6,411 nt of DNA, from positions 1 through 6,411 of the forward strand of contig LJUY01000085.1 of the NCBI GenBank assembly GCA_001304015.1, given 5' to 3'. Under the pieces are notes generated by a model that was given only the letters and a program-made list of their open reading frames with translations, made no database searches and had not been told where the DNA came from. Made by a program: the position numbers and the translations under genes. Below are positions 252 through 6,232 of this stretch, in pieces (the first letter of the stretch is position 1; the number at the start of each line of letters is the position of its first letter). Origin of the DNA: a candidate division Zixibacteria bacterium SM23_81 (GTDB taxonomy: Bacteria; SM23-81).

Positions 252-269
252 GGACTCCCATGGGAGTCC
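252..269. repeat. Perfect 18-bp palindrome in the leader of the Tat lipoprotein gene
   Basis: GGACTCCCATGGGAGTCC is identical to its own reverse complement. As RNA it can form a 7-bp stem (252-258 with 263-269) with a CATG loop, ending five bases before the AGGAGG ribosome binding site. A weaker stem lies just upstream (CTAAGG 234-239 with CTTTAG 245-250, one G-U pair). It could be a protein operator or a leader hairpin affecting translation or mRNA stability; the sequence does not distinguish these. No convincing -35/-10 pair was found between 170 and 250. Confidence 0.6.
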
Positions 270-273
270 GGAA

Positions 274-279
274 AGGAGG
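274..279 (+). promoter_or_regulatory. Ribosome binding site fixing the start at 284
   Basis: AGGAGG (274-279) lies four bases before the ATG at 284 within GGAAAGGAGGG, a near-perfect Shine-Dalgarno sequence. It favours 284 over the in-frame ATG at 260, which lies inside the palindrome and would put eight extra residues in front of the Tat motif. Confidence 0.8.
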
Positions 280-283
280 GATC

Positions 284-733
284 ATGAAACGACGAGAGTT
301 CATACGGAACTCAGGTTTGCTTCTCGGAGGAGCCAGCCTGGTTGGCTGTGGTCTCTTTAACTGTGCCAAAAAGGAAGAGAAGATGGAGGAGGCCGGCGAG
401 CCAACCCCGGAGATGTCACGTTTAGACATGATCAAGAAGGACATGATGGAGAAGCAGGGCTTGTCTGAAGCCGAAGTGGCAGCCAAGATGACGGAATTCC
501 AGGAAATGCTTCCCGAGGTCAAGCAGATGTGCATCTGCGCTAACTGTCCCTCTTACGTTGAAGGGGAGACCGAGCTCGGATTCTGTCACGCCCTGGTGGG
601 CAAGAGCAGCAAGATCACCGAGAGAAAAAGCTGCATATGCCCCGAATGTCCTATTTACAAAAAATTAGGTATGAAGCGGGGGTATTACTGCCTGATGGGT
701 TCCAAGCTGGAGTTGGATCTGGCCGAGATGTAA
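284..733 (+). CDS. Tat-exported lipoprotein with duplicated DUF2769-type cysteine motif
   Basis: The product has 149 residues. It opens with a twin-arginine signal (KRREFIR, residues 2-8), a short hydrophobic stretch and the lipobox LVGC with Cys22, so export as a folded, lipid-anchored protein is likely. Residues 30-80 are charged and Met-rich, probably helical. The C-terminal half holds two copies of one motif: C83-I-C85-x2-C88-P-S-Y with C101, then C117-I-C119-x2-C122-P-I-Y with C136, each fourth Cys followed by a Gly-Lys/Ser segment. This CxCxxCPxY...C pattern is what I recall for DUF2769, a family of unknown function. Four cysteines per copy suggest a metal or Fe-S site, and Tat export fits loading of a cofactor before transport; both are inference. 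The start is set by the Shine-Dalgarno at 274-279. The next gene, an rseC homologue with its own cysteine cluster, is 114 bases downstream on the same strand. Confidence 0.85.
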   Translation: MKRREFIRNSGLLLGGASLVGCGLFNCAKKEEKMEEAGEPTPEMSRLDMIKKDMMEKQGLSEAEVAAKMTEFQEMLPEVKQMCICANCPSYVEGETELGFCHALVGKSSKITERKSCICPECPIYKKLGMKRGYYCLMGSKLELDLAEM

Positions 734-847: not shown

Positions 848-1315
848 TTGGAAGAAATGGGCACGGTGTTGGAGATCAGAGACCGAGTGGCGTTGGTCTC
901 CACTGAGGCGAAGGGAGCCTGTCACAGCTGCTCTGCCAGGGGAGTTTGCCATCTGGGCGGGAGCAAAACGATGGTCGCCGAGACGTGGAATACCTTAGGT
1001 GCTCAGGTAGGGGATACGGTGCGCATCAGTCTGGGCTCTCGATCTGTTCTGGGAGCTGCGTTTCTTCTCTATATGGTTCCGCTGCTCTTTTTCCTCGGGG
1101 GTTTGATTCTGGGGCAGACCTTGACCAGTGGCCAGACCTGGGGTGTCATTCTGGGATTTCTGTGTATGGTTGCTTCATATGTAGGCATTCGGTTCCTCGA
1201 TCGCAGACTCAGCCGAGCGGAGAAGTTTCGGCCAGAAATAGTCGAAATCGTTGCCAGAGAGTCGCCGAAGGCCTCAGTGGACAAGGGTGGTTCTGCCGGG
1301 AAAGAGGGCATTTAG
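848..1315 (+). CDS. rseC: RseC/MucC-family inner-membrane protein
   Basis: The product has 155 residues, close to the usual family length. Residues 4-35 match the family N-terminus: a short strand (MGTVLEI), then a cysteine cluster C25-x2-C28-x5-C34 (CHSCSARGVC). VGDTVRISL (54-62) follows, then two membrane helices at about 67-90 and 97-117, and a basic and acidic cytoplasmic tail. RseC proteins act in the inner membrane; in E. coli RseC takes part in sigma-E control and in the SoxR-reducing system, and in anaerobes such proteins often accompany Rnf-type electron transport. No sigma-E or rnf gene is visible here, so the partner is unknown. A TTG start at 848 is chosen because AAGGTG (835-840) lies seven bases upstream; the ATG at 857 would be 16 bases away. 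The stop overlaps the stop of the convergent lyase gene by four bases. Confidence 0.85.
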   Translation: MEEMGTVLEIRDRVALVSTEAKGACHSCSARGVCHLGGSKTMVAETWNTLGAQVGDTVRISLGSRSVLGAAFLLYMVPLLFFLGGLILGQTLTSGQTWGVILGFLCMVASYVGIRFLDRRLSRAEKFRPEIVEIVARESPKASVDKGGSAGKEGI

Positions 1316-4300
1316 AATAGAAACTTGAGGAAGCCATCGTTACGAATGCCCAGCAAGGGATCTTTGGACAACAACAAACCCGGACTGCAGGGATTGCCCA
1401 GTTGTTGGATTTCGATCTCATATGCGTCGATTCGATCTTGCGAGCTCATCTGTACCTCAGCCCGACCCCGAATGCCCCTTCCTTTAGAATCCCTCCACGA
1501 AGCATGCGCAGAGATTTGAGAGTGCTTCTCTCCCAGAGGCGTCCACAGACGGTGCCACCCGCCGCCCCAGCTGACGCTGCCCCATCGATCCATGCCCAAA
1601 CCCCAGGTCATTCTCCGGCTTTCTCGCGAATTCCCCTCCAGCCTGAGGTGAATCCGCGTTGGCCCCGCGGGCATGAGATGGGCCGAAAGGGCCAGGCGAA
1701 CGAGATCGTGCCCCTCGGGCGCGCTATGTTCATGGAACACACTCGTGGCTGTGGTGACCCACCAGCCCCAATCTCGCTGGAGGGAAAGCGCCTCCTGGGT
1801 GATGAGCGGTCTTCGCCGCTCATCGAATGTAGCCCCTAAGGTCCAGCGGGTACGGTCTCCTTGCCCACGGAGGTTTCCCGAGCCTCGTATCCCGTGGCCA
1901 TTCTGGTACACGCTGTACAATTGCCCTCCCAGGTTCTCTCCCAGACCAGAGACCGTGTTGCTCAACTCCAGCACCTTGATGTGACCGGATCGATGAGCCC
2001 AAAGAGAGCTGAAATCCCAGGTAAAGCCCGAGAGGGGGATGCTGGCCCAGCTCACCCTGAGGTTCTTTTCCCCGGTGGAACCCGGGTCCACCAGCTCTGC
2101 CTGGGGAGAGAAGGTTCGGCCTCGATGGGAGAACAAAACGCGTCTTCCTAGGGACCTGCCCGCCCCTCGATACTGGGATGCCTCGGCCGTCAAAGAGGGG
2201 CCGCGCAAAAGGAGGTCGACTCCATACATGTCCGAGCCCTTTTGGGTATACCCTTGCACCCCCCAGATCATCTCTCCCGGACGATGGAAAGCCCAAAACT
2301 GATGCCGCCTCTGATCCTGTATTCTCTCCAGGCTGGTGGCCAGGGAGATCGTTCCCACCTCGAGGCTTAGCCTTTCATGCTTCACCTCGGGATAGGGAGA
2401 ATAATGGCCCACCTTCACAGAGGCGCTGCCCTTTGCGTCTAGCTGACCCTCCAATCGCTCAAGCCTGAGCCCTTCCTTGGTCAAATAGCCATCTTGATAA
2501 TAGGACAGCTCCACCTCGCCCCAGGTGCTGGTGCCCTCTAGATGCTCGGGAACATTCAGCCGAGCCCAGTTGCGAGGGTCGTAAACCTTGTCGGCCAGGC
2601 CTGTGGTCATACCCAGGGCCTTATCCGGTCCATCTGGGCCTAGTCCTAGTCTCTGGCTCAGCCTCCCCAGCGGTCCATTTACCTGTTCCCGAGCCACATC
2701 CAGCGCCTGTATTTGCACCAGAAATCGCCCCTCAGGGCTTAATTCCTCCCATCGAGCCATGGGCTCATCCTGCCAGGCCAGCTGTTCCAGGAAGGGATAG
2801 TGGTCCTTGGATTCTTGGGGAGTGAAGACCTGAGGAGGCCCATCACCCAGCTCCAGAGGTCCGGATCCCTCCAGGTGCAGCTTCACCTTCCCGTGTCGGT
2901 ACTCATACTCAAGGGGAAATTGTCCAAAGCGCACATGGCCAGGATCAAATCCGATATCCAGCAGAATAGTCACCTGTCGGTCGCCGGCGTCCACATACCC
3001 GAACCAACGATTGCCCTCGGTGACCAGGCTCACCGTGACGGGATTGTCGCTGATGTAGCAAGTGTCGCTCAGGTGGGCGTAGACAGTGCCCTGGCCATTG
3101 ATGAAGAACTGCTTGGCTCCGTCGGCGCCGAAACCGGTGACGCACACCAGCGCGTCCGTGGTCACCCCCTCGGCGGTCGTCGTACCCCCGTCGGAGGCAA
3201 TCACCAGATGCCGGGCTCCGCTCAGGGGCTCTCCGGAGATCTCACGGACCTGAGCTCTTGGGGATGAGGTTACGGGGATATCAGTGGATTTGAGTTGGCA
3301 GCGGTCACCACCCTGAGGCAACAGAAGAGTGACGAACTGCGCCTCCCGGCGGGGAGTCTTTTTTGCCCTGATATATGTGTGGCTTTTCTTCTGCTTCCAT
3401 CTCGGCGAGTGCTGGCCCGTTCTCAGGGATATTTCCAGGGGGTCCTTCTCCGGCGACAAAAAGTCCACCTCCAGACTAGTCGGGGCCGTGGACCAGCTGA
3501 CCTTTTCCGGCTCCTGCATGAAGGCCTCTCCCAGGCCATGTAGGGCCAGCTCGTATTCGTGCGTATCAGGGGAGCTGAGCCGATCGAAGATCAAAAAATA
3601 GTGATGGCCGAGGAAATGCACGGTTCGCTGGATTTCGGCTCCCCGGTATCTGGTTCTCACCCCCGCCCCGCTGATCTGCGGGGTACGGAAGCAATGGAGC
3701 AATTGTCCGCCCGATGGATCTCCCAAGAATGGATTTCCGCTGGGGCCCTTGCCATCGACCAGTAGCATGTTGTGGCCCTCGGAGGAGAGATACCAGGAGC
3801 GCCCATCGCCTAACCCCCCTCTGGGACCGGCAGCCGCGTCGATGAGCAAGTCCTGGCCGTGGGCTTGGAGGATGAAGTGACCCGGATCGAGATGTTCGTG
3901 ACCGCTGGCCAAAGCTTTTTCTCCTTCCCCCAGCAGCAGTAGGTAGATGCCATCGGAGGCCCAGCTGTCTCCGAAAACGGCCATGCCACCGTCTGGGAAG
4001 AAGGCAGTTCTCTCCCAAGGAGGCGGCTCTGGAGGGACACGATCGTCGAAGGCACAGATGAACTCCACCTCCCTCAAAAGGCCACTGGCCACTGGTCGCT
4101 CCCGCTCGTAAATCCAACGGGCCACACCTCCCAACCGGCTCTGGCCCACCAGAATGGGAAGGTAGATTCGGCTCTCTTGCCAGGCGTCGTCGAAAAGAGG
4201 GATGCTGCCGTCGGGCTTGCTGGTTCTGATAACCCACTGGACGAAGCGCTCGATTCGGCCAAGTCTAAAAAGGTTATACCCTGTGGTTTTGCCCAGATAT

Positions 4301-5256
4301 AAGATGAAGGGAAAAAGGACCCGTGCGATGTAGCCAGCATAGTAAAGGCCTTCTCGGTAAGAGCCATCTTGGTCGATTTGGGCCAGGCCACTGCGCAGAT
4401 TGATCATGGCGGCGTCCAACCAGGCTTGGGGTTCTCCTCGTCCATAGGAAGAGAGGGTCAGGGCGGCCGTGCCCACCGCCGCGGCCATAAGGGTCTTGTG
4501 GTTGTTTGGAGGGGCAAACTTCACGTTCCGGTAGAGCTGGTCCGTCTCAGCAGCGATTTTTTCCGCTACCAGAAGGCGGTCTCTCGGAGAAAGGTTTTCA
4601 GCCACGAGGTCGTAAGCCACACAATAGATGAGCATTAGGTTCGAGGCTCGAACCCAGTCTCCCCAGCCAGCTCCTGTCTTTCCCCCCTCCGGGGTAGTCA
4701 CCGCCGGTGGGGGAGATATGTGCAGCAATCCCTCTCGAGCCTTCTCCAAGTATGAACTTTTCCCGGTAATCAGATAGGCGAAGGCACAGCTTTTGGCGGC
4801 AAGGGCTCTCTTGGATTCTTCCAGATGGGGATCGGAGAGGTTGGTGACGAGGCTGCTATTAGCTTCCCGAAGGATGTGCTTCCACCAGCGAGCATAAGGT
4901 TCTCGTAAGATCCTCTGACGGATGAGATCTATTTGGTCCTGGGAGAAAAGCAGCGAGGGATGTCGCTCGGCGGGCAGAGCAATTTTAGGAAGATACACCT
5001 GTTCGAGAGCAAAAAGATCGTCCAGATCATAGGCCCGGTAGTCTGCTGTGGCCACACCTCTCAGGGCCGCCCGCCCGACCCTTTTGCCCGCGGAAACCAG
5101 ATTCCTTAAGCCGAGTGGTGAAGCGGATTTTATTGGGAAAGTCGCCTCATTAGACCAGGTTAGCCCAACGCCACCCAACAGGATGATGATCACAAAGCCC
5201 GTAAGGCAGCATTTTCCCAGCGCGAGACACACGGCCATGAGGTCCGTTTTTGACAC
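1312..5256 (-). CDS. Heparinase II/III-type polysaccharide lyase fused to a predicted outer-membrane beta-barrel
   Basis: One uninterrupted frame of 1314 residues. Residues 1-36 are a signal peptide (core FVIIILLGGVGL). Residues ~95-400 look like the helical toroid of heparinase II/III-like and alginate-lyase enzymes: entry motif HPSLLFS (99-105), N251-N252-H253, and DGSYREGLYYAGY (297-309) with the candidate catalytic Tyr. Residues ~420-600 are the beta-sandwich: GHEHLD (452-457) and HNMLLVDG (495-502). The Asn/His, Tyr and His set used for beta-elimination of uronic-acid polymers is thus present; the substrate cannot be told. Residues ~690-800 are an extra beta-rich domain and ~810-905 a helical linker. 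Residues ~908-1314 are alternating strands with short turns, many aromatic residues, and a C-terminal GFLKFLF ending in Phe, as in outer-membrane barrels. Typical family members end after the sandwich at roughly 600-800 residues. The start is uncertain: GTG at 5256 or ATG at 5238 (residue 7), both with weak ribosome binding sites. It has its own promoter. Confidence 0.85.
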   Translation of the reverse strand: MSKTDLMAVCLALGKCCLTGFVIIILLGGVGLTWSNEATFPIKSASPLGLRNLVSAGKRVGRAALRGVATADYRAYDLDDLFALEQVYLPKIALPAERHPSLLFSQDQIDLIRQRILREPYARWWKHILREANSSLVTNLSDPHLEESKRALAAKSCAFAYLITGKSSYLEKAREGLLHISPPPAVTTPEGGKTGAGWGDWVRASNLMLIYCVAYDLVAENLSPRDRLLVAEKIAAETDQLYRNVKFAPPNNHKTLMAAAVGTAALTLSSYGRGEPQAWLDAAMINLRSGLAQIDQDGSYREGLYYAGYIARVLFPFILYLGKTTGYNLFRLGRIERFVQWVIRTSKPDGSIPLFDDAWQESRIYLPILVGQSRLGGVARWIYERERPVASGLLREVEFICAFDDRVPPEPPPWERTAFFPDGGMAVFGDSWASDGIYLLLLGEGEKALASGHEHLDPGHFILQAHGQDLLIDAAAGPRGGLGDGRSWYLSSEGHNMLLVDGKGPSGNPFLGDPSGGQLLHCFRTPQISGAGVRTRYRGAEIQRTVHFLGHHYFLIFDRLSSPDTHEYELALHGLGEAFMQEPEKVSWSTAPTSLEVDFLSPEKDPLEISLRTGQHSPRWKQKKSHTYIRAKKTPRREAQFVTLLLPQGGDRCQLKSTDIPVTSSPRAQVREISGEPLSGARHLVIASDGGTTTAEGVTTDALVCVTGFGADGAKQFFINGQGTVYAHLSDTCYISDNPVTVSLVTEGNRWFGYVDAGDRQVTILLDIGFDPGHVRFGQFPLEYEYRHGKVKLHLEGSGPLELGDGPPQVFTPQESKDHYPFLEQLAWQDEPMARWEELSPEGRFLVQIQALDVAREQVNGPLGRLSQRLGLGPDGPDKALGMTTGLADKVYDPRNWARLNVPEHLEGTSTWGEVELSYYQDGYLTKEGLRLERLEGQLDAKGSASVKVGHYSPYPEVKHERLSLEVGTISLATSLERIQDQRRHQFWAFHRPGEMIWGVQGYTQKGSDMYGVDLLLRGPSLTAEASQYRGAGRSLGRRVLFSHRGRTFSPQAELVDPGSTGEKNLRVSWASIPLSGFTWDFSSLWAHRSGHIKVLELSNTVSGLGENLGGQLYSVYQNGHGIRGSGNLRGQGDRTRWTLGATFDERRRPLITQEALSLQRDWGWWVTTATSVFHEHSAPEGHDLVRLALSAHLMPAGPTRIHLRLEGNSRESRRMTWGLGMDRWGSVSWGGGWHRLWTPLGEKHSQISAHASWRDSKGRGIRGRAEVQMSSQDRIDAYEIEIQQLGNPCSPGLLLSKDPLLGIRNDGFLKFLF

Positions 5257-5287: not shown

Positions 5288-5364
5288 GTTTTGGAGGGGA
5301 AAAATACGACCAGGCCGTCCCAGTGTCAAGCTTGAAATCTTTCGAGAGGTTTTGGGAGGGGAAA
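5288..5364. repeat. Direct repeat pair flanking the lyase promoter
   Basis: GTTTTGGAGGGGAAA (5288-5302) and GTTTTGGGAGGGGAAA (5349-5364) differ by a single inserted G. They are 61 bases apart, close to six helical turns, and in the same orientation. On the minus strand the first covers the end of the -10 box and the expected start of transcription, and the second lies about 20 bases upstream of the -35 box. This placement is what a pair of operator sites would show, though purine-rich chance similarity is possible. Confidence 0.5.
5301..5329 (-). promoter_or_regulatory. Sigma-70-like promoter of the lyase gene
   Basis: Read on the minus strand, a perfect TTGACA (5329-5324) is followed after exactly 17 bases by TATTTT (5306-5301, four of six matches to TATAAT). 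Transcription would start near 5294, giving a leader of about 38 bases to the GTG or 56 to the ATG. The 177-base gap between the lipoprotein stop and the lyase start contains no clear terminator, so read-through from the upstream gene may add to this promoter. Confidence 0.65.
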
Positions 5365-5433: not shown

Positions 5434-6225
5434 TCATTGCAGGGTGAAATCAACCCTGGTCACTTGGCCCTCGACTAAGTGAATTGTATTCGTGGCCGTA
5501 GCATACCCTTCTTTACTGGCTGAGATCTCGAAATGGTCGGTGAGCTCCCAGGAGGTCTCCGGGTAAGGCCAATTTCCCGGATAAAAGATACTGTCCAGAG
5601 GGGCCATTACAGTCGTGCTATGCAAAAGAATATTTAAAGGCACATTTGCGATGACGTATTTTCCGTCGGATTGAGTGGTTACGGTATAGGATTGCAGGCC
5701 TCCCTCGCCGGCGATGTCGACGTTTTTTGACAGGGCAATTCGAGTACTGCTGGTGTCCCCAGAAAAGAGAACCAGGATCTCGCAGGGGTAAAGACCATTG
5801 GGCAAGATTTCCCCTTGGGTATCGAGGCCATCGAAATAGACTTTGTTGGGACCCTCAGCAGTGGGGGCATTGGGGAACTCGCGCATCAATTCTCTCTGGA
5901 GGTTATAGATGGAGATCTGTACCGACTGGGCTGGCCCATTGGCCAGGTAGTAAGTGAAATATGTGTATGTAGAAAAGGGATTTGGGTACATGTGTTGGGT
6001 GCCCGGAGGCGGTATCGGTTCGATTGTGGTGATGGACACCCTGGCGCCTCCCAAATCCTTTCCATTGGAGTTTTTCACAAAACCAGCCACCATCCCGCAA
6101 TAGGGATTGGTGTTGGTCACGTCTAACCCATTTTCTGGCTCGGTGGCCTTGTCGTCGCATCCTATCAGCAGGGTACTCAACAACAGGACTACGAAGGCAA
6201 AAAGGATACAAGATTTGGGTTTCAT
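5434..6225 (-). CDS. Lipoprotein with a FlgD-like Ig module inside a carboxypeptidase-regulatory-like domain
   Basis: The product has 263 residues from the ATG at 6225. A Sec lipoprotein signal ends in the lipobox LIGC with Cys23, followed by Asp24-Asp25. In proteobacteria Asp at +2 keeps lipoproteins at the inner membrane, but that rule may not apply here. Residues ~43-67 are the first strands of a carboxypeptidase-regulatory-like fold (GFVKNSNGKDLGGARVSI). Residues ~77-153 form a FlgD-type Ig unit: YPNPFS (80-85), VQISIYN, and FDGLDTQGEILPNGLYPCEI, matching the usual WDG-x-D...G..V.SG.Y pattern. Residues ~182-263 resume the first fold (SDGKYVIANVP, then SASKEGYATATN and GQVTRVDFTL). No enzyme motif is seen; a structural or carbohydrate-contacting surface role is inferred from the folds. 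It has its own promoter and lies directly upstream of the lyase gene on the same strand, so a shared role is plausible. Confidence 0.8.
   Translation of the reverse strand: MKPKSCILFAFVVLLLSTLLIGCDDKATEPENGLDVTNTNPYCGMVAGFVKNSNGKDLGGARVSITTIEPIPPPGTQHMYPNPFSTYTYFTYYLANGPAQSVQISIYNLQRELMREFPNAPTAEGPNKVYFDGLDTQGEILPNGLYPCEILVLFSGDTSSTRIALSKNVDIAGEGGLQSYTVTTQSDGKYVIANVPLNILLHSTTVMAPLDSIFYPGNWPYPETSWELTDHFEISASKEGYATATNTIHLVEGQVTRVDFTLQ
5440..5458 (-). other. Small hairpin over the lipoprotein gene's last codons
   Basis: CAGGGT (5440-5445) pairs with ACCCTG (5453-5458) around a seven-base loop, just before the stop of the minus-strand lipoprotein gene. No T-run follows on the minus strand, so it is not a standard rho-independent terminator; it may only protect a 3' end or be chance. 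Confidence 0.25.
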
Positions 6226-6232
6226 GGCCATG

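Follow-up and report, generated by a model that had tools for sequence, protein, structure and literature searches.

The window analyzed here is the whole of a 6,411-base contig (LJUY01000085.1) of the candidate division Zixibacteria bacterium SM23_81, and it is occupied mostly by a gene that had been predicted from the sequence alone to join a polysaccharide lyase to an outer-membrane-type barrel in one polypeptide. The gene is indeed a single open frame at positions 1312-5256, encoding 1314 amino acids; its strand, left unstated in the original prediction, is the minus strand. The features are listed below, with "joined proteins" denoting the window protein and its four full-length homologues, and Dp0100 the PL39 alginate lyase used for alignment.

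5434-6231, minus strand: upstream putative lipoprotein, with CarboxypepD_reg and FlgD-like matches
5301-5329, minus strand: sigma-70-like promoter match TTGACA-17-TATTTT, a consensus match only, 44 bases before the GTG
1312-5256, minus strand: complete joined gene, from the GTG at 5256 to a stop codon at 1312-1314, 1314 amino acids, full-length homologues known
5149-5256, minus strand: probable signal peptide, residues 1 to about 36, by reading the translation
4057-4971, minus strand: lyase alpha/alpha-toroid part, residues about 96-400, by alignment to PL39 6JPH and a weak Pfam DUF4962 match
4498-4503, minus strand: N252-H253, equivalent by alignment to N186/H187 of Dp0100, invariant in all five joined proteins
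4339-4341, minus strand: Y306, equivalent by alignment to catalytic Y239 of Dp0100, invariant in all five
4186-4188, minus strand: D357, equivalent by alignment to D288 of the His-Asp-His-metal tetrad, invariant in all five
2917-4056, minus strand: lyase beta-sheet part, Hepar_II_III_C, residues about 401-780, by Pfam and PL39 alignment
3892-3900, minus strand: H453, equivalent by alignment to catalytic base H405, invariant; H455, equivalent to H407, replaced by Gln in L017 and L022
2542-2826, minus strand: helical linker from the lyase to the C-terminal domain, residues about 811-905, helix from low-confidence predicted secondary structure
1315-2541, minus strand: C-terminal strand-rich domain, putative outer-membrane beta-barrel, residues about 906-1314, no family match
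1315-1335, minus strand: C-terminal end GFLKFLF, beta-signal-like, pattern G-x-hyd-x-hyd-x-aromatic

The putative signal peptide, as read from the translation, consists of an n-region with Lys, the hydrophobic stretch GFVIIILLGGVGL, and small residues at its end. The order of the putative lipoprotein and the joined gene is kept, with similar spacing, in L002, the relative that is 62% identical to the window protein over the whole length. Downstream of the lyase gene lie two convergent genes, one RseC/MucC-like and the other encoding a DUF2769 protein. The RseC/MucC-like gene, which converges on the lyase gene, overlaps its stop by four bases; the start of the cysteine-rich DUF2769 protein (window positions 260-733), encoded beside the RseC/MucC-like gene, resembles a twin-arginine signal and a lipobox (MKRREFIRNSGLLLGGASLVGCG). 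No polysaccharide synthesis or export genes adjoin the window gene on the 6.4-kb contig or occur at the homologous loci examined, and glycosyltransferase, polymerase, and copolymerase genes are likewise absent near the window gene and at the examined loci of its relatives.

Residues 89-763 align with both catalytic domains of Dp0100 (phmmer against PDB 6JPH/6JP4, E 8e-36), Pfam Hepar_II_III_C matches over its cut-off (E 7e-14), and DUF4962 matches weakly in the alpha/alpha-toroid part; the heparinase II/III-type enzyme predicted at the outset is confirmed by the first two of these matches. The active site and metal tetrad of Dp0100 comprise N186/H187, Y239, D288, H405, and H407 (PMC8286568, PMC12915356), and all six reported residues are present in the window protein as N252, H253, Y306, D357, H453, and H455. 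These equivalences were counted along the printed alignment, where they fall on chain positions 187, 188, 240, 289, 406, and 408, respectively, with a constant offset of one from the reported numbers; residue 186 is given as Asp in one literature source and is Asn in the PDB sequence. N252-H253 and Y306, already named as candidate residues, align with N186/H187 and Y239 and are thereby upheld, whereas the candidate His is only partly so: since the alignment puts H455 on H407, it belongs to the active site as the metal-tetrad His, and the equivalent of the catalytic base is H453, matching H405. The active-site residues are invariant across the five joined proteins with the exception of H455. 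Judged from these alignments, the N-terminal half is probably a PL39-like uronate lyase, with alginate as its probable substrate.

The same joined layout was found in four further full-length proteins (L002, L017, L022, and L027), the five together measuring 1217-1314 amino acids. L002 comes from a genome (G001) of the same family as the window, L017 (1228 amino acids) and L022 (1246 amino acids) belong to another phylum-level group, and L027 (taken as 1217 amino acids) to a third, this last placement resting on searches of the phylum-level groups centered on G010 (39 genomes) and on G098 (5 genomes), which had no matches in common. Among 386 sampled genomes, full-length matches to the five-protein profile occur only in the genome of the window (G000) and in G001, G010, and G240, the genomes of L002, L017, and L027, respectively; all other matches span lyase parts only. 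When the domain-wide sample was redrawn around other centers, most of the genomes were the same and no additional joined form appeared. A contig scan of genomes with the single window protein gave no match, a scan with the alignment gave three loci, of which one was new, and viral contigs scanned for the joined protein gave none. The search for the joined architecture in homologues, suggested with the original prediction, thus yielded four more proteins and three phylum-level groups overall, and the combination of lyase and C-terminal domain is real and recurrent, not an accident. In a tree of the lyase part, a branch with support 98/96 sets the five joined proteins apart, which is compatible with a single origin but does not prove it, because the tree is rooted at its midpoint and the program warns of long branches.

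At the L017 and L022 loci, the joined gene has two enoyl-CoA-hydratase-like genes on one flank and, on the opposite one, a gene for a multihaem-cytochrome-like protein whose start resembles collagen, a synteny kept despite C-terminal parts that are only about 26% identical. Two long frames from the same phylum as L017, L023 and L024, were rejected as joined forms because their N-terminal domains differ and the barrel-like tail is missing; they encode heparinase-like proteins of 1173-1176 amino acids whose additional N-terminal region looks ThuA-like.

The C-terminal stretch of about 400 in-frame residues ending in Phe was predicted correctly, being conserved in L002 and having an aromatic end in the five homologous chains. 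Residues 906-1314 are 53% identical to L002 with dN/dS of about 0.22, and the linker residues 811-905 are 70% identical with dN/dS of about 0.11; taken as a whole, the C-terminal half has a dN/dS of about 0.2 between the window protein and L002 and is thus subject to purifying selection. All five chains end in G-x-hyd-x-hyd-x-Phe/Trp, a pattern picked after the sequences had been inspected, and its three-position hydrophobic/aromatic part would arise by chance, given composition, at about 0.005 to 0.02 per protein. In the classical beta-signal, the Gly stands one place nearer the chain end than in the joined proteins. Neither Pfam nor NCBIfam matched the C-terminal part of the window protein, and Pfam matched none of the five C-terminal parts, its CBM, FN3, and sorting families included; Omp85, POTRA, and the autotransporter beta-domain of Pfam did not match the C-terminal part either, nor did a five-sequence profile of this part match any PDB sequence, so that the proposed comparison with barrel families came out empty for both Pfam and the PDB sequences. 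Profile-profile comparison of the C-terminal parts among the three clades gave no significant match; in gapless matching against shuffles, the magnitude was not significant, and several best matches fell at the equivalent linker position.

Strand-type alternation was scored as z against shuffles on three scales, the calibration set being 14 barrel stretches from E. coli and 42 soluble ones. On the binary scale, where barrels score 1.8-4.8 and soluble stretches have a median of -0.1 with 1 of 42 above 1.2, the C-terminal parts reach 2.1 (window protein), 1.7 (L002), and 3.1 (L027), against 0.1 at most for the lyase parts of these three, and 0.8 (L017) and 0.8 (L022). The corresponding Kyte-Doolittle values are 2.4, 2.9, 2.9, 0.2, and 0.6 (barrels 0.8-5.7, soluble stretches up to 2.3), and those on the octanol scale 0.5, 2.1, 4.5, 0.4, and 0.3; for the average of the window protein and L002, the Kyte-Doolittle score is 3.1 and the octanol score 1.6. 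Lower values were obtained for the lyase regions of the joined proteins, but the beta part of L041, a lyase-only relative, reaches 2.4 on Kyte-Doolittle. Alternation in or near the known-barrel range is therefore found in three of the five proteins on two of the three scales, L017 and L022 being weak on all (0.2-0.8). The amphipathic strands predicted for the window protein have moderate support, on two scales (z 2.1-2.4) but not on the octanol scale, and the alternation favors a barrel in this protein without proving it.

AlphaFold, run on a five-sequence alignment of the C-terminal part (mean pLDDT 34.6) and on that of L027 alone (34.1), returned a helix followed by strands at unusably low confidence, probably because the alignment was shallow. 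When the first of these models was used as the query of a fold search, nothing matched at E 0.001 or below. BamA/Omp85 is encoded in all five host genomes (best E 1e-59, in the genome of the window), and all can therefore assemble barrels. The best Omp85 match of G082 (G082:C56:18603-19577) contains an in-frame TAA, which may be an assembly error or real. A C-terminal part of known soluble fold, the opposite outcome considered with the original prediction, was found in none of the homologues. The predicted outer-membrane barrel is thus favored indirectly by the aromatic end, the alternation, the apparent signal peptide, and the presence of BamA, but the models, at pLDDT of about 34, are too uncertain to show a closed barrel. 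On balance, the C-terminal part is likely to be an outer-membrane barrel, and the lyase is probably anchored in the outer membrane.

The joined protein is worth comparing with known systems. Like Dp0100 of Defluviitalea (PDB 6JP4, 6JPH, 6JPN), it has a two-domain catalytic lyase (residues 89-763) with the six active-site residues; however, Dp0100 runs on into FN3 and CBM modules, and the window protein into a strand-rich region of about 400 residues ending in Phe. The host of Dp0100 is a Firmicute and lacks an outer membrane. In type Va autotransporters that carry an enzyme, such as EstA, the enzyme comes first and a C-terminal barrel with an aromatic last residue follows, the order predicted for the window protein; nevertheless, the Pfam model of their 12-strand autotransporter domain, about 300 residues long, finds no match, and the C-terminal part of the window protein is larger. 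The possible pairing of chain processing with an outer-membrane barrel in the window protein recalls the export systems AlgE/AlgL and BcsC/PgaA/PelB; unlike the window protein, however, these have a separate lyase or TPR repeats before the barrel, and the window locus has no export genes. The patatin-Omp85 proteins PlpD and FplA (type Vd) carry an N-terminal enzyme, a linker, and a C-terminal barrel on one chain, the layout predicted for the window protein, although their enzyme is a patatin-like phospholipase and their barrel an Omp85 with POTRA, and the window protein matches neither Omp85 nor POTRA. In PlpD, composed of enzyme, helical linker, and C-terminal barrel, the enzyme is kept in the periplasm (PMC11116518).

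By analogy, we infer a PlpD-like layout in which the lyase replaces the phospholipase. In the predicted mechanism, the signal peptide would export the joined chain, BAM would insert the C-terminal strands into the outer membrane, and the helical linker would tether the lyase to the membrane, with the periplasmic face the more likely side, where the enzyme may cut polyuronate chains by beta-elimination on their arrival at or departure from the cell. This reading as a whole, a PL39-like uronate lyase and an outer-membrane barrel on one chain with the enzyme anchored at the membrane and more likely periplasmic, seems to us to have an even chance of being correct. The bolder version, a new barrel family fused to a PL39-type lyase in uncultivated bacteria from three or more phylum-level lineages and cutting polyuronate at the barrel mouth during import or export, is quite unlikely. 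The earlier suggestion that chain cutting is coupled to passage through a pore is speculative; export and synthesis genes are absent beside the window gene and at the homologous loci examined.

The lyase might instead be a secreted enzyme whose C-terminal residues form a soluble beta-rich accessory region, for example several sorting or carbohydrate-binding domains. No barrel was modeled (pLDDT of about 34 in both predictions), Dp0100 itself has beta-sandwich modules after its catalytic part (PMC9971899), and lyase relatives bear other C-terminal additions, such as the sorting-like tail of L041; the lack of any Pfam CBM, FN3, or sorting family match in the five sequences, their common aromatic chain end, and the alternation in or near the barrel range in three of the five proteins on two scales argue against it, leaving this a genuine but lesser possibility. 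If the barrel is accepted, the main rival on topology is an outward-facing lyase, brought to the surface by its barrel, autotransporter-like, as an anchored polysaccharide-degrading enzyme. The order of enzyme first and barrel last, with a helix just before the strands in the low-confidence model, recalls type V proteins, and it is typically outside the cell that polysaccharide lyases encounter large polymers. Yet the lyase is a large globular alpha/alpha-toroid and not a beta-helix passenger, and PlpD, formerly classed as such an autotransporter, retains its enzyme in the periplasm (PMC11116518); we regard the outward orientation as somewhat unlikely.

An export route, with the barrel as exit pore and the lyase trimming or clearing the chain in the manner of AlgL plus AlgE in one protein, is highly improbable. 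The argument for it is architectural, and about 400 residues, if they form a barrel, are enough for an AlgE-sized pore; however, the C-terminal part matches no Pfam or PDB barrel, an export gene cluster was rejected for want of such neighbors at the loci examined, and the export pore is the least supported of the topologies and roles because of this absence of synthesis and export genes, glycosyltransferase, polymerase, and copolymerase genes among them. As for the enzyme half, a uronate C5-epimerase or an inactive relative would fit the fold, which is common to dermatan-sulfate epimerase (also found in the profile search), and the loss of both H455 and D473 in L017 and L022, but it is very unlikely given that the window protein keeps all the Dp0100 active-site residues and that its best match is a characterized lyase.

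Enzymes fused to a C-terminal barrel are already known, whereas a polysaccharide lyase as the cargo was found undescribed in the literature searched: the titles and abstracts covered, with most subscription journals outside their scope, held no description of a heparinase or alginate lyase with an autotransporter or barrel domain. If the barrel of the preferred, PlpD-like reading is real, the lyase would be fixed in the outer membrane beside a possible pore, in an enzyme-barrel fusion with lyase cargo that ties chain cutting to a fixed place. It would then offer a single-gene system in which to ask whether polymer cleavage and passage are coupled, and would add a barrel family missed by current Pfam models.

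Other C-terminal additions were seen among the lyase relatives. In L041, about 80 C-terminal residues read as a FlgD/T9SS-sorting-like tail, a different addition from that of the joined proteins. The genome of the window encodes a second heparinase II/III protein (L030; G000:C71, 1-3054), which continues in frame into a right-handed beta-helix-like part, and the same contig has a weak match to Omp85 at a distance of about 4.5 kb.
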